Positions 12,688 through 17,255 of a DNA stretch of 41,576 nt are shown piece by piece. Below the pieces are notes generated by a model, which saw only the letters and a list, made by a program, of their open reading frames with translations, was not told the DNA's origin and did not search any database. Numbering within the stretch: the first letter of the stretch is position 1; each line of letters starts with the position of its first letter. The translations under genes were made by a program, and so were the position numbers. Origin of the DNA: an uncultured Bacteroidota bacterium (GTDB lineage: Bacteria > Bacteroidota > Bacteroidia > Chitinophagales > Saprospiraceae); contig CAIVGO010000473.1 of NCBI GenBank assembly GCA_903905445.1, forward strand, positions 1 to 41,576. The letters are read 5' to 3'.

Positions 12688-12745
12688 TATTAAATTATTA
12701 GTCTACAAATTTGGTAGGATAAAAGACGTCACGTACCTTTACGGC

Positions 12746-12850
12746 ATGAAGTACACTTTGTCATACAAACCATGTTGTTGTTGTTGTTCAATTCGATCCA
12801 CCGAAGCGGCTCCAACACGTATATTGTTTGACAGGATTTTAATTCCATAA
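12746..12850 (+). CDS. Candidate poly-cysteine leader peptide (34 aa): MKYTLSYKPCCCCCSIRSTEAAPTRILFDRILIP
   Basis: Read directly: ATG 12746, five TGT codons 12773-12787, TAA 12848-12850. Followed by a terminator and a TonB-dependent receptor. Below the ORF-track length cutoff. Confidence 0.65.
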   Translation: MKYTLSYKPCCCCCSIRSTEAAPTRILFDRILIP

Positions 12851-12890
12851 GTTCGTACAATTTCGTTTTGTCTTAAAAAAGCCCTTCGGT
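12800..12890 (+). promoter_or_regulatory. Candidate antiterminator pairing: 12800-12810 (ACCGAAGCGGC) with 12881-12890 (GCCCTTCGGT)
   Basis: 7 bp plus 3 bp with a one-base bulge; mutually exclusive with the terminator stem because both use 12881-12890. Confidence 0.5.
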
Positions 12891-12911
12891 CACTTACCGA
12901 GGGGCTTTTTT
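12875..12911 (+). terminator. Intrinsic terminator / attenuator hairpin between leader ORF and TonB-dependent receptor
   Basis: AAAAAAGCCCTTCGGT-CACTT-ACCGAGGGGCTTTTTT, one G:U-type mismatch, T-tract. Confidence 0.85.
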
Positions 12912-12949
12912 AATTTATGCACTCATTGATCAACTACAAACATTTTAAA

Positions 12950-15496
12950 ATGAAGCAAAAATTAACACGCATCCTGGCCCTGCTGTTCTGGGCTAATTTG
13001 TCATTCGGTCAAAGCGAGGTTCAGGGCCTAATACAGGATGGCGCGGGTTATCCGCTTGTTGGTTCATCCATCGTCCTGAAAGGTTCGAGCACTTATACGA
13101 TTGCCGACACGCTTGGTAAATTCAGCCTCACTACTCGAAAAACCCCGCCTTTCATCTTAGTCATTAGTGCGGTGGGCTATACTACCCAGGAAATTACGCT
13201 TACAGAAATTCCAAAAACACCGCTGACGATTACGCTGGTAGAGGATAGTCAGCTTTCCGAGGTGGTCATTACCTCCAGGCGCCGGCAAGAGACGGCCCAG
13301 AATGTACCCATCCCCATTTCTGTCATAGGCGGGAAGTTGATCGAAGAATCGGGTGCATTCAATGTAAACCGCCTGAAAGAACTAGTGCCGACCGTACAAC
13401 TCTATTCCTCCAATCCGCGCAATACCACCCTGAATATTCGAGGCTTGGGCTCTACTTTTGGATTGACCAATGATGGTATTGACCCAGGTGTAGGGTTTTA
13501 TGTAGATGGTGTGTACTACGCGCGCCCGGCTGCGACTACCCTCGATTTTATTGATATTGAACAAGTTGAGGTGTTGCGTGGACCACAGGGCACCCTTTTT
13601 GGCAAAAACACCACTGCGGGGGCCTTTAACATCACCACCCGTGCGCCAAGTTTTAAACCTGGCGCAAGTTTTGAGCTGAGTTATGGCAACTACGGATTTA
13701 TCCAGGCGAAAACTTCCATCACTGGTCCGTTGGGTAAAAAATTTGCCGGAAGGCTTTCTTTCTCGGGTACACAACGGGATGGTCTGCTGTATAATATTAG
13801 AACCGAAAAACCGGTGAACGACCTCAATAACCTGGGGGTTCGCGGACAACTCTTGTTTACCCCAACTGATCGGGTGAAAATTACGCTGGCTGGTGATATA
13901 TCAGAACAGCATCCAGGTGGTTACGCACAGGTTGTCGCTGGTGTGGTGACCACCCAACGTGCGGGTTACCGGCAATTCAATCAGATCATTTCTGATCTTG
14001 GGTATTCGTTACCTACCCAAAATCCGTTTGACCGGATCGTCGACCATGACACCCCTTGGCGTTCAGGGAATGAATTGGGGGGCGCTTCGCTCAATATTGA
14101 TGTAAAACTTGGTAGCGGTACGCTTACTTCGACGACTGCCTGGCGTTATTGGAACTGGGATCCGTCGAATGACCGGGACTTTACGGGTTTGTCGGTATTG
14201 TCGAAGTCGGCGGCCACTTCAAGGCATGAACAATGGACCCAGGAAATTCGGTATGCCGGGAATTTATTACCCAGCGTAAGTGGTGTAATTGGACTTTTTG
14301 CCATTGGTCAGGACTTGACGACCGATCCGGTGCACACGGAAGAATCTGGTTCGGCACAATGGCGTTTCTCTCAAAGTTCGACCAGCAATTTATGGAAAAC
14401 GCCAGGTCTGTTGGATGGTTATGGCATCAAAACCACCTCCCGGCTTCAAACTTTTAGTGGCGCGGTGTTTGCCCAGGTTGACTGGGGTATTACCAAGCGT
14501 TTGCACCTGTTGCCGGGCATTCGTTACAACAACGACCAAAAAGACGTGGTGTATGACCGCAAAACGTATGGCGGCTTAGAAACAACAGATCCGGCACTGA
14601 TTGCCCTCAAGCGGCTGGTTTACACGGATCAGGCATTTTCAACCAATGTAAATGAAAGCAATCTTTCGGGTCAGTTAACGCTTTCCTTCAAAGCTTCCAA
14701 CCGCATCAATACGTTTGCCACCTATTCAACCAGTTTCAAGCCAGTTGGTGTTAATTTGGGGGGCTTGCCCACGGCAAATGGCGAAATTTTGATTGATTTG
14801 GCGCGGGTTAAGCCCGAATCGGTCACGCATTTCGAATTGGGTATAAAAACGAGCCCAACCAGCAATTCCACCTTGAACCTGGTATTTCACAACACCGACA
14901 TCAAAGATTACCAAACCCAGGTTCAAACGGCTGAGGTGGGTGTAAACCGCGGATACCTCGCCAATGCGGAAGAAGTGCGCGTATTGGGCGTTGAATTGGA
15001 TGGTAATGTCCGGTTTGGTAAACATCTTTCCTTGTACGGCGCGTTCGCTTATACCGAGGGCAAATACGTGTCCTTCACCAATGCGCCGGTTCCCTTGGAA
15101 GAAACGGGTGGCGCAACCGCATTTAAGGATATTTCAGGCAGCCGATTGCCGGGTATTTCCAAATGGGCCGGTTCTTTAGGGGGCGAATTGACCACTTCCG
15201 GCAAATTACTCAGTGAAAGCGGCAAGTATTTTCTGGCGTTTGATACCTATTCCCGCTCCGAGTTTTCTTCGAGTGGATCACCCTCTGCTTATTTGAATAT
15301 TGAAGGTTACGCCTTGCTGAATGGCCGATTGGGTTTCCGCGCCAGCAATGGATTGTCGGTCTTTGTCTGGGCGCGCAATTTGCTGGACAAAGATTATTTC
15401 GAACAGTTGTTGCCCGCAGCGGGCAATGCAGGACATTATGCTGGAGTATTGGGCGATCCAAGAACCTATGGCATAACTTTGCGGTACACTTATTAA
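12950..15496 (+). CDS. TonB-dependent receptor with carboxypeptidase-regulatory-like N-terminal domain
   Basis: 'VQGLIQDGAGYPLVGSSIVLKGSST...', plug 'RQETAQNVPIPISVIGGKLIEE...GFYVDGVYYARP...VEVLRGPQGTLFGKNTTAGAFNI', C-terminal aromatic 'YGITLRYTY'. Start chosen at MKQKLTRILALLFW. Confidence 0.92.
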   Translation: MKQKLTRILALLFWANLSFGQSEVQGLIQDGAGYPLVGSSIVLKGSSTYTIADTLGKFSLTTRKTPPFILVISAVGYTTQEITLTEIPKTPLTITLVEDSQLSEVVITSRRRQETAQNVPIPISVIGGKLIEESGAFNVNRLKELVPTVQLYSSNPRNTTLNIRGLGSTFGLTNDGIDPGVGFYVDGVYYARPAATTLDFIDIEQVEVLRGPQGTLFGKNTTAGAFNITTRAPSFKPGASFELSYGNYGFIQAKTSITGPLGKKFAGRLSFSGTQRDGLLYNIRTEKPVNDLNNLGVRGQLLFTPTDRVKITLAGDISEQHPGGYAQVVAGVVTTQRAGYRQFNQIISDLGYSLPTQNPFDRIVDHDTPWRSGNELGGASLNIDVKLGSGTLTSTTAWRYWNWDPSNDRDFTGLSVLSKSAATSRHEQWTQEIRYAGNLLPSVSGVIGLFAIGQDLTTDPVHTEESGSAQWRFSQSSTSNLWKTPGLLDGYGIKTTSRLQTFSGAVFAQVDWGITKRLHLLPGIRYNNDQKDVVYDRKTYGGLETTDPALIALKRLVYTDQAFSTNVNESNLSGQLTLSFKASNRINTFATYSTSFKPVGVNLGGLPTANGEILIDLARVKPESVTHFELGIKTSPTSNSTLNLVFHNTDIKDYQTQVQTAEVGVNRGYLANAEEVRVLGVELDGNVRFGKHLSLYGAFAYTEGKYVSFTNAPVPLEETGGATAFKDISGSRLPGISKWAGSLGGELTTSGKLLSESGKYFLAFDTYSRSEFSSSGSPSAYLNIEGYALLNGRLGFRASNGLSVFVWARNLLDKDYFEQLLPAAGNAGHYAGVLGDPRTYGITLRYTY

Positions 15497-15546: not shown

Positions 15547-15709
15547 CAATTTAAAAGCATCGGTCAATATGGCATTGAATAGGTGGTATTTGTGTTCATA
15601 ATTAGTTTGACGCTGGGCAACTCACAACCCGAACTGTTCGCGCCCGGACATTCGATTTCCCAAGCACCCTTTACTTTTGCAGCAACAAGTAACAAAATCA
15701 ATTATACAC

Positions 15710-16168
15710 ATGAAATCATTGCTGATTTTTTCCATTTCCATATTATTTGCCACGGTTGCTTTTTCTCAAACAGGCACACGTACCAAACAATTTAACTTAT
15801 CGGGTGGACTCGCAATTCAGGGATATGACCCGGTTGCTTATTTTACCCAAAACAAAGCCGTAAAAGGAAGTGCTCAGCATGCGGCAACTGTAGAAGGGGT
15901 TACATACTATTTTGCTTCTGCCGCCAACAAAGACCTTTTTTACAAAAACACCAAAAAGTACGAACCACAATATGGCGGTTGGTGTGCGTATGCCATGGGC
16001 GCTACAAATTCCAAAGTGGAAATTGACCCCGCTACTTTTAAAATTGTAGATGGTAAATTATATTTGTTCTTTCACACCTGGTACAACAATACGCTGACCA
16101 AGTGGAACGCAGACGAAGGCGCACTGAAATCAAAAGCGGATAATTATTGGCAATCAATTTTCAAATAA
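15710..16168 (+). CDS. Secreted YHS-domain protein
   Basis: 'LAIQGYDPVAYFTQNKAVKGSAQHAATVEGVTYYFASAANKDLFYKNTKKYEPQYGGWCAYAM'. Start chosen at MKSLLIFSISILFATVAFSQ. Confidence 0.9.
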   Translation: MKSLLIFSISILFATVAFSQTGTRTKQFNLSGGLAIQGYDPVAYFTQNKAVKGSAQHAATVEGVTYYFASAANKDLFYKNTKKYEPQYGGWCAYAMGATNSKVEIDPATFKIVDGKLYLFFHTWYNNTLTKWNADEGALKSKADNYWQSIFK

Positions 16169-16190
16169 AGCCGACCGTGGACCGCGCAAA

Positions 16191-17255
16191 ATGCCGAACA
16201 TACATACATCAATGCTGAAGCGCAGATTAAGAATACTGTATATCAAAACTTCCAGTTGGGAGTATTGGCCAATGTGGCTGGTGTATCTGCCAGCCACATT
16301 TTATTTTATCTATTTGTCGATCAAGGCCCGCTCCTTGTTCTTTTTTTCGGCGTCTAATCCTTCCATTGAAACGGGTGGAATGTTTTTTGAAAGCAAATGG
16401 CAAATTTTCAAACTAATTCCCAAAGCCTATTACCCCAGTACCCTTTACATCTCGGAACAGACAATGCTTTCTTGCATACTGGAAAACATGTTATCTGCTG
16501 GAATTGATTTTCCAATTATCGCCAAACCTGATCGGGGCGAACGCGGCTGGTGTGTAAAAAAATTGCACTCCCCGGCCGAATTGGAAGCCTATAACGCACA
16601 GATTCCATTTCCATTTTTAATACAATCTTACGTTGATTATCCCCTGGAATTTAGTATTTTGTATTCCAGAAATCCCAATTGCACTCAAGGAGAAATCGTT
16701 TCCGTGACCTTGAAAAAACTACTCAGCATTACGGGCGACGGCTTATCCAGCATGGATGAATTAATCCTGCGCAACAACCGTGCAATATTGCAATACGCTA
16801 AATTGAAACACGATAAAAATTTAAATTTATGCCATGTATTGCAGCCTGGGGAAGAAAGACTGCTCGTGCCTTATGGAAATCACGCCTTGGGGGCGATGTT
16901 TTTGAATTACAATCATATTATTGATGCATCCCTGCTGGCTGTTTTTGACAACATCAGTAAACATATTGAAGGTTTTTACTATGGTCGTTTTGATTTACGT
17001 TGCAGCAGTATTGAAGACCTGAAAAAAGGACAGAATATTAGTATCCTGGAATTGAACGGCGCAGGCGCGGAGCCTTCCCATATTTACGATCCACAATTCC
17101 GATTTTGGGATGGACAAAAAGTTATCCTACAGCACTTTAACAGGATATATCAGGCAGCGATTGAAAACAGGAAAAAAGGCATTGGTTTTATGTCGCTTTG
17201 GGATTTTATGAAAATATGGAAGTTGAAAAGAGCGTACAAAAAAATAGCAATATAA
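16191..17255 (+). CDS. ATP-grasp-like protein with N-terminal membrane segment
   Basis: 'PIIAKPDRGERGWCVKKL', 'FLIQSYVDYPLEFSILY', 'FYYGRFDLRCSS...ISILELNGAGAEPSHIYDP' resemble ATP-grasp nucleotide- and metal-binding motifs. Confidence 0.7.
   Translation: MPNIHTSMLKRRLRILYIKTSSWEYWPMWLVYLPATFYFIYLSIKARSLFFFSASNPSIETGGMFFESKWQIFKLIPKAYYPSTLYISEQTMLSCILENMLSAGIDFPIIAKPDRGERGWCVKKLHSPAELEAYNAQIPFPFLIQSYVDYPLEFSILYSRNPNCTQGEIVSVTLKKLLSITGDGLSSMDELILRNNRAILQYAKLKHDKNLNLCHVLQPGEERLLVPYGNHALGAMFLNYNHIIDASLLAVFDNISKHIEGFYYGRFDLRCSSIEDLKKGQNISILELNGAGAEPSHIYDPQFRFWDGQKVILQHFNRIYQAAIENRKKGIGFMSLWDFMKIWKLKRAYKKIAI

Follow-up and report, generated by a model that had tools for sequence, protein, structure and literature searches.

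In the trp, his, and leu attenuators, a leader ORF carries a run of codons for the regulated residue, an antiterminator (E2:E3) competes with a terminator (E3:E4), a hairpin between E1 and E2 may form, and the genes under control act in the pathway of the same amino acid. Mycobacterial leaderless ORFs with consecutive Cys codons, located upstream of cysteine and sulfur genes, are cysteine-responsive attenuators of downstream genes (Canestrari 2020, cited in PMC9094748, PMC9031893, and PMC13236596); the latter two sources describe the attenuation as translational. Actinobacterial cys leaders are without conserved terminator hairpins (PMC1262725). The uORFC-8-2 motif, which precedes cysS in Rhodobacterales (Alphaproteobacteria), combines a predicted uORF, whose two Cys codons lie in the first stem, with an intrinsic terminator, and ribosome-mediated attenuation by charged tRNA-Cys was proposed for it (PMC8632094). 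In Bacteroidota, leader-peptide attenuation is suspected in general terms (PMC9723704 and PMC7366714). In the case of structured 5′ regions of Flavobacterium psychrophilum, attenuation of amino-acid operons was suspected, and cysteine leaders are not mentioned in the accessible part of that report (PMC9723704). We found no report of a poly-Cys attenuator system in Bacteroidota in an open-access collection of papers.

Here, we analyzed a poly-Cys leader upstream of a TonB-dependent receptor gene in a 41,576-nucleotide stretch of Saprospiraceae DNA (below, the window). The leader shares with the trp, his, and leu attenuators the properties listed above, the E1:E2 hairpin as a possible one, and differs from them in the residue (cysteine), the probably leaderless ORF, the presence of many loci per lineage, often in tandem, and the phylum. 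The mycobacterial leaders are similar in their consecutive Cys codons and their position upstream of cysteine and sulfur genes, while the leaderless start is only predicted here; unlike mycobacterial and Actinobacterial leaders (PMC1262725 and PMC9031893), leaders of the window type have an intrinsic terminator and a covarying antiterminator. Since mycobacteria belong to an unrelated phylum, the likeness is probably convergent. The uORFC-8-2 motif likewise combines Cys codons of a uORF with an intrinsic terminator after it, but it is limited to two such codons and to cysS, whereas window-type leaders contain 4–9 Cys codons, serve a whole sulfur regulon, are probably leaderless, and are often tandem. 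The mechanism itself is a known one; what is new is the combination of residue and lineage, the likely leaderless start, and the frequent tandem copies.

Leader, terminator, and antiterminator of the window

The features of the locus, all on the plus strand, are listed below.

12710–12713, + strand: predicted −33 promoter element TTTG, 20 nt before the −7 box
12734–12741, + strand: −7 promoter element TACCTTTA, matching 7 of 8 positions of TAnnTTTG and ending 4 nt before the ATG
12746–12850, + strand: leader peptide ORF (ATG at 12746, stop at 12848–12850, 34 aa, MKYTLSYKPCCCCCSIRSTEAAPTRILFDRILIP), with counterparts in other leaders
12773–12787, + strand: run of five TGT (Cys) codons, the putative control codons, which also contribute to the 5′ arm (E1) of a possible hairpin sequestering the E2 region
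12800–12810, + strand: E2, antiterminator 5′ arm (ACCGAAGCGGC), beginning 12 nt past the last Cys codon
12876–12890, + strand: E3, terminator 5′ arm, of which 12884–12890 alternatively pairs with E2
12891–12895, + strand: terminator loop, from folding
12896–12911, + strand: E4, terminator 3′ arm (12896–12910) and U-run, the latter within and after the arm
12950–15496, + strand: TonB-dependent receptor, 848 aa (Pfam PF00593, PF07715, PF13715)

The 34-aa ORF with its five TGT codons, claimed in the original prediction, was confirmed at these positions, as was the order of terminator and receptor gene: a hairpin at 12876–12910 with a U-run is followed by a plausible receptor start at 12950, an in-frame ATG being also present upstream, at 12917.

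The promoter elements of the window match the Bacteroidota type, TTTG...TAnnTTTG. A box of this type so close to an ATG would place the transcript start at, or next to, that ATG. With only 4 nt between the −7 box and its ATG, the leader ORF is predicted to be leaderless, and transcription probably starts at or next to its first codon. The full TAnnTTTG box was present near the ATG in 30 of 56 leaders, nearly all of these 30 also had a TTG element at a spacing of 20–21 nt, and a gap of 4 nt between TTTG and ATG was the mode across leaders. A consensus scan of the window revealed no σ70 promoter, the sole flag being a minus-strand hairpin; this result was set aside, since the window promoter is of the Bacteroidota type. 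No riboswitch or leader family was matched at gathering score in an Rfam scan of the window.

The leader fold of the window had a z-score of −6.0 relative to shuffled sequences. The claimed complementarity of 12800–12810 to 12881–12890 stood in its core: ACCGAAG (12800–12806) and CTTCGGT (12884–12890) form seven contiguous base pairs, but the extension, in which GGC (12808–12810) pairs with GCC (12881–12883), requires a 1-nt bulge at 12807. The leader was next folded stepwise, with a ribosome masking it at various places and with varied 3′ ends. When a stalled ribosome masked the leader up to the Cys run and the RNA ended at 12890 or 12897, E2:E3 was the best structure. In the absence of the ribosome, E2 was held in a hairpin with the Cys codons (1:2 hairpin) and the terminator formed; the terminator also formed with the ribosome over E2 or at the stop codon. 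E2:E3 never appeared in these cases. At full length, the terminator was thermodynamically favored over the antiterminator in every case, including that of the stalled ribosome. The switch must, therefore, be kinetic, and control by the trp leader is generally held to be kinetic as well. In the 1:2 hairpin, the Cys codons can pair with the downstream half of E2 (e.g., GUUGC with GCAAC); its stability exceeded that of shuffled controls in 31 of 38 leaders (mean z −0.88), a moderate excess.

Recurrence and covariation of poly-Cys leaders

Five consecutive TGY codons occur 16 times in the genome of the window, mostly inside genes in other frames, and the single window could thus be due to chance. 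Whether poly-Cys leaders recur at sulfur-uptake genes, a question raised in the original prediction, was examined in a pattern survey, i.e., with fixed DNA patterns in a sample of genomes. Loci were chosen by an in-frame Cys run, or by a Cys run and the E2 motif, and not by gene; a leader was kept if an ORF of 60 codons or less contained at least four consecutive Cys codons and was accompanied by a strong terminator. The survey produced 81 leaders from 60 loci, nearly all from Saprospiraceae, with 4–9 Cys codons per leader. Of the 81, 78 precede a cysteine- or sulfur-related gene or a receptor of the window type. The genes behind them are cysH, CysH-like, cysteine synthase, sulfite reductase, serine acetyltransferase-like, and metY genes, as well as genes of a 1-Cys peroxiredoxin, a DUF4395 protein, a RimK-like ATP-grasp protein, and the receptor. 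The labels come from reference proteins of the same loci, and Pfam names these genes independently. The other three leaders had no gene match within reach, two of them being located where the examined stretch ends. Chance is ruled out, because the whole design recurs ahead of sulfur genes.

Two such leaders were found in the same genome beyond the window. A scan for five Cys codons revealed leader MKINFANINPCTFGNAVAIMCICCCCCSVSGRPQGYLHDDGIF, followed by a terminator and a gene whose MetY-like product belongs to the Cys/Met metabolism PLP family (C324, L136), and a second scan revealed leader MMQNKQNKIACCCCQIQVTEAEAQRFYFETTIL, followed by a terminator and the PAPS reductase gene, cysH (C728, L135). 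The E2 plus E3 pattern alone occurs at eight places in this genome, with leaders only at the window and at cysH. Within the genus to which the window belongs, at least 27 of 42 genomes carry in-frame poly-Cys leaders, and such leaders also occur in about 12 other Saprospiraceae genera. As a control, 20 loci from other genera were picked solely by an in-frame Cys run after TTTG-ATG. Eleven of them had a terminator, and these were the same 11 that had cysteine- or sulfur-related genes; the remaining nine had neither and were dropped. A scan for four TGY codons followed by CCGAAGCGGC returned 93 stretches, of which those outside Bacteroidota (in Xanthomonas, Pseudomonas, Actinobacteria, and others) did not combine an ORF with a terminator in this way and were discarded as chance matches.

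Among other families of the class, one of five in-frame picks was kept (L302, leader MIYSNFCNHTCCCC..., followed by a terminator and a cysteine synthase gene), and two of eight picks were kept in a sample of the phylum (L342 and L343, from another family, with leaders MNSGTSKTFTTCCCCC... and MNSGTSKNFTTNCCCC..., each followed by a terminator and a DUF4395 gene). Since arm pairing is weaker or different in these three, we treat them only as leads. At many loci, two complete leaders, each with its own terminator and mostly with a matching antiterminator arm, are arranged in series before one gene or cluster (L103, L108, L111, L112, L127, L137, L139, L270, L272–L274, and L276–L279).

Several proteins encoded behind poly-Cys leaders merit separate mention. 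The sulfite reductase behind tandem leaders at L137, L139, L274, L276, and L279 is about 711–742 aa long, and that of L137 has a C-terminal match to the HEPN domain. The position of the RimK-like ATP-grasp protein (Pfam, on L271) behind the leaders of L271 and L280 suggests a ligase tied to cysteine supply. The DUF4395 membrane protein is encoded repeatedly behind poly-Cys leaders (L247:1973–3238, L103, L342, L343), a distant family included, and its gene in L247 adjoins that of a PIG-L-family deacetylase resembling bacillithiol BshB1. A role of DUF4395 in sulfur or thiol metabolism is possible.

To score covariation, the 45 nt after the Cys run were compared with the 5′ arm of the leader's own terminator and with the arms of other leaders. 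Mean E2:E3 complementarity was 19.49 with the leader's own arm, a value that none of 5000 permutations reached, and 15.50 ± 0.31 (sd) with swapped partners. For eight leaders whose E3 arms share no 6-mer, the values were 20.25, again reached in 0 of 5000 permutations, and 13.65 ± 1.27 (sd). E2:E4 complementarity was only 13.1. The same result had been obtained with an earlier leader set, 18 leaders without CTTCGG included. The E2/E3 pairs included CCGAAG/CTTCGG at cysH, CCGGAG/CTCCGG at a peroxiredoxin gene, GGAAAGGG/CCCTTTCC and AATTTCGGGA/TTCCGAAATT at cysK, and TGACATCAGGAGG/CTTCTTGATGTCA and TTACTTCAATAGG/CTGATTGAAGTGA at sulfite reductase genes. Because own pairing beats permuted partners, the arms change together while the design stays. 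Pairing was weak in a few leaders (L129, L271, L302, and L326). The claim that antiterminator and terminator exclude each other agrees both with the alternative folds in the window and with the covariation between leaders.

The antiterminator mostly starts about 8–15 nt past the Cys run, and the CGAAG core, where present, lies 14–15 nt past it in most leaders. A ribosome stalled on the last Cys codon would leave the core just outside its footprint. Codon 11 is the most frequent position of the first Cys. TGT accounts for 240 of the 303 Cys codons in leaders, and the synonymous mixing of TGT and TGC indicates that the amino acid is conserved, not a triplet repeat. Outside the Cys run, the peptides of different loci show no conservation and no shared CxxxC motif.

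The receptor and its orthologs

The receptor consists of a carboxypeptidase-regulatory-like domain, a plug, and a barrel. A PDB search revealed no close solved relative, only generic siderophore and metal receptors, and gave no hint of sulfur. Ten further genomes of the same genus contain receptor orthologs. In four of these (G034, G027, G005, and G021; L247–L250), the receptor gene lies on the same strand as, and downstream of, cysH, cysD, cysN, cobA-like, and cysJ-like genes, and a poly-Cys leader precedes cysH. On the 3′ side of the receptors in these clusters is a DUF2490 gene, in some cases with a sulfite reductase or a chromate-transporter-family gene. The sulfur link that had been claimed for the receptor is supported by this synteny, and the receptor probably imports a sulfur source or a sulfur-containing compound.

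The G012 ortholog (L253, 73% identity), located outside the cluster, is preceded by a leader of its own, MLTYSFQMTMCCCCTARFTEAATSTFGKR, accompanied by CCGAAGCGGC and a matching terminator; thus, a receptor gene that has departed from the cluster can have a separate leader, which is also the arrangement in the window. G012 is the only other genome in which a receptor ortholog with readable upstream sequence has its own poly-Cys leader. The remaining orthologs would rely on the leader ahead of the clustered cysH, or have none nearby; the latter is the case in G003, where the gene next to that of the receptor is similar to those of Rrf2-type regulators.

A different mini-ORF (MKTYTLFLRPYCR, MKTHRLFLRPYCQMRL, MKSIKLFLRPYCW, or MKTHPLFLRPYC) was observed roughly 70–150 nt ahead of receptor orthologs without a poly-Cys leader in G027, G034, G006, and G016 (L346, L347, L348, and L349), with a second copy in G016:C331 (L350). 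LFLRPYC is kept despite many synonymous changes, and the mini-ORF peptide itself is, therefore, probably under selection. Genes of Rrf2-family regulators adjoin the sulfur cluster or the receptor at L247:317–754 (by Pfam) and L255:2160–2603 (by sequence resemblance) and may provide a second layer of control. Downstream of the window receptor, at 15677–17255, are a YHS-domain (seleno)protein-family gene (NF041384) and the gene of a 354-aa protein, for which no Pfam or NCBIfam match was found.

Proposed mechanism and alternatives

Four of the features by which an attenuator is recognized are found here: a short leader ORF in which codons for the regulated residue cluster, an intrinsic terminator between the leader and the gene, a covarying antiterminator mutually exclusive with the terminator, and regulated genes in the pathway of the sensed amino acid. 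The cysteine attenuation layout put forward in the original prediction is strongly supported by recurrence at sulfur genes, arm covariation, and regular spacing; the probable leaderless start, the possible 1:2 sequestering hairpin, and the family-wide, often tandem, regulon go beyond it. Our best reading, to which we assign a probability of about 0.88, is ribosome-mediated transcription attenuation that senses charged tRNA-Cys and controls a sulfur-assimilation regulon, often through tandem leaders. RNA polymerase is predicted to start at or next to the leader ATG and to be followed by a ribosome that translates the leader peptide. Under a shortage of Cys-tRNA, this ribosome would stall on the Cys run and disrupt the pairing of the Cys codons with E2, and the freed E2 (12800–12806) would pair with the emerging E3 (12884–12890), so that the E3:E4 terminator would not form and the receptor gene would be transcribed. 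When cysteine is ample, E2 would be covered by the advancing ribosome or sequestered in the Cys-codon hairpin, E3 would pair with E4, and transcription would end before the receptor gene. The response would, in other words, be induction by cysteine limitation. The same switch would control cysH, cysK, sulfite reductase, serine acetyltransferase-like, metY, peroxiredoxin, and other genes in Saprospiraceae, which would place the receptor in a cysteine/sulfur-starvation regulon.

The mycobacterial precedent raises the question of whether the poly-Cys ORF acts on translation, with slow ribosomes altering access to the downstream gene start and the hairpin being an ordinary terminator. The leaders described here also look leaderless, as in mycobacteria, yet an intrinsic terminator separates leader and gene in 81 of 81 cases. 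A terminator was a condition of collection, but in the 20 in-frame picks from other genera it was present in just the 11 with cysteine- or sulfur-related genes. Moreover, E2 and the 5′ arm of the terminator covary, and the regulated gene begins only after the terminator. We consider action on translation improbable.

The Cys-rich peptide could instead sense metal or redox state, in the manner of the copper-responsive CruR/CutF type, and not cysteine supply. Metal binding by Cys runs, the known case of a copper-responsive leader ahead of a TonB-dependent receptor, and the presence of a peroxiredoxin among the controlled genes speak for this reading. Leaders of the CruR/CutF type are defined by a CxxxC-type motif and by metal-homeostasis genes downstream. 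Poly-Cys leader peptides are without such a motif, and the genes behind them are those of sulfate reduction and cysteine synthesis; furthermore, the lack of peptide conservation between loci argues against a peptide function, without which RNA complementarity and spacing suffice. We regard metal or redox sensing as slightly less probable still than an effect on translation. The pure (TGT)5 of the window and the 16 TGY runs in the genome would fit a chance arrangement, in which an untranslated leader contains TGT as a simple triplet repeat and the hairpin is an ordinary terminator. This explanation, which we give almost no weight, is refuted by comparative data: the 81 leaders have their runs in frame and at a regular position, mix TGT with TGC, have a promoter adjoining the ATG and matched arms, and precede sulfur genes.

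A wider extension of the attenuation reading is tentative, and we hold it at somewhat less than even odds. Leaderless, frequently tandem poly-Cys attenuators may be a widespread means of controlling sulfur assimilation in Bacteroidota, of an origin independent of the mycobacterial leaders, in which initiation at a 5′-terminal AUG would couple the first ribosome tightly to RNA polymerase and tandem copies would steepen the response. The leaders outside Saprospiraceae, those of L302 (cysteine synthase) and L342/L343 (DUF4395), would then belong to a Bacteroidota-wide system.

The findings provide a model of how cysteine and sulfate assimilation is regulated across a large group of Bacteroidota for which we found no such system described, and placement in a likely cysteine-starvation regulon provides functional hints for the TonB-dependent receptor, DUF4395, and the RimK-like ATP-grasp protein. 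Leaderless mRNAs are rare in Bacteroides, with about 3.7% of 5′ UTRs shorter than 10 nt (PMC7366714), and in Flavobacterium, with a value of 5.5% (PMC9723704). A regulon that seemingly favors leaderless leader ORFs is, therefore, a natural test case for leaderless translation and transcription-translation coupling in Bacteroidota.
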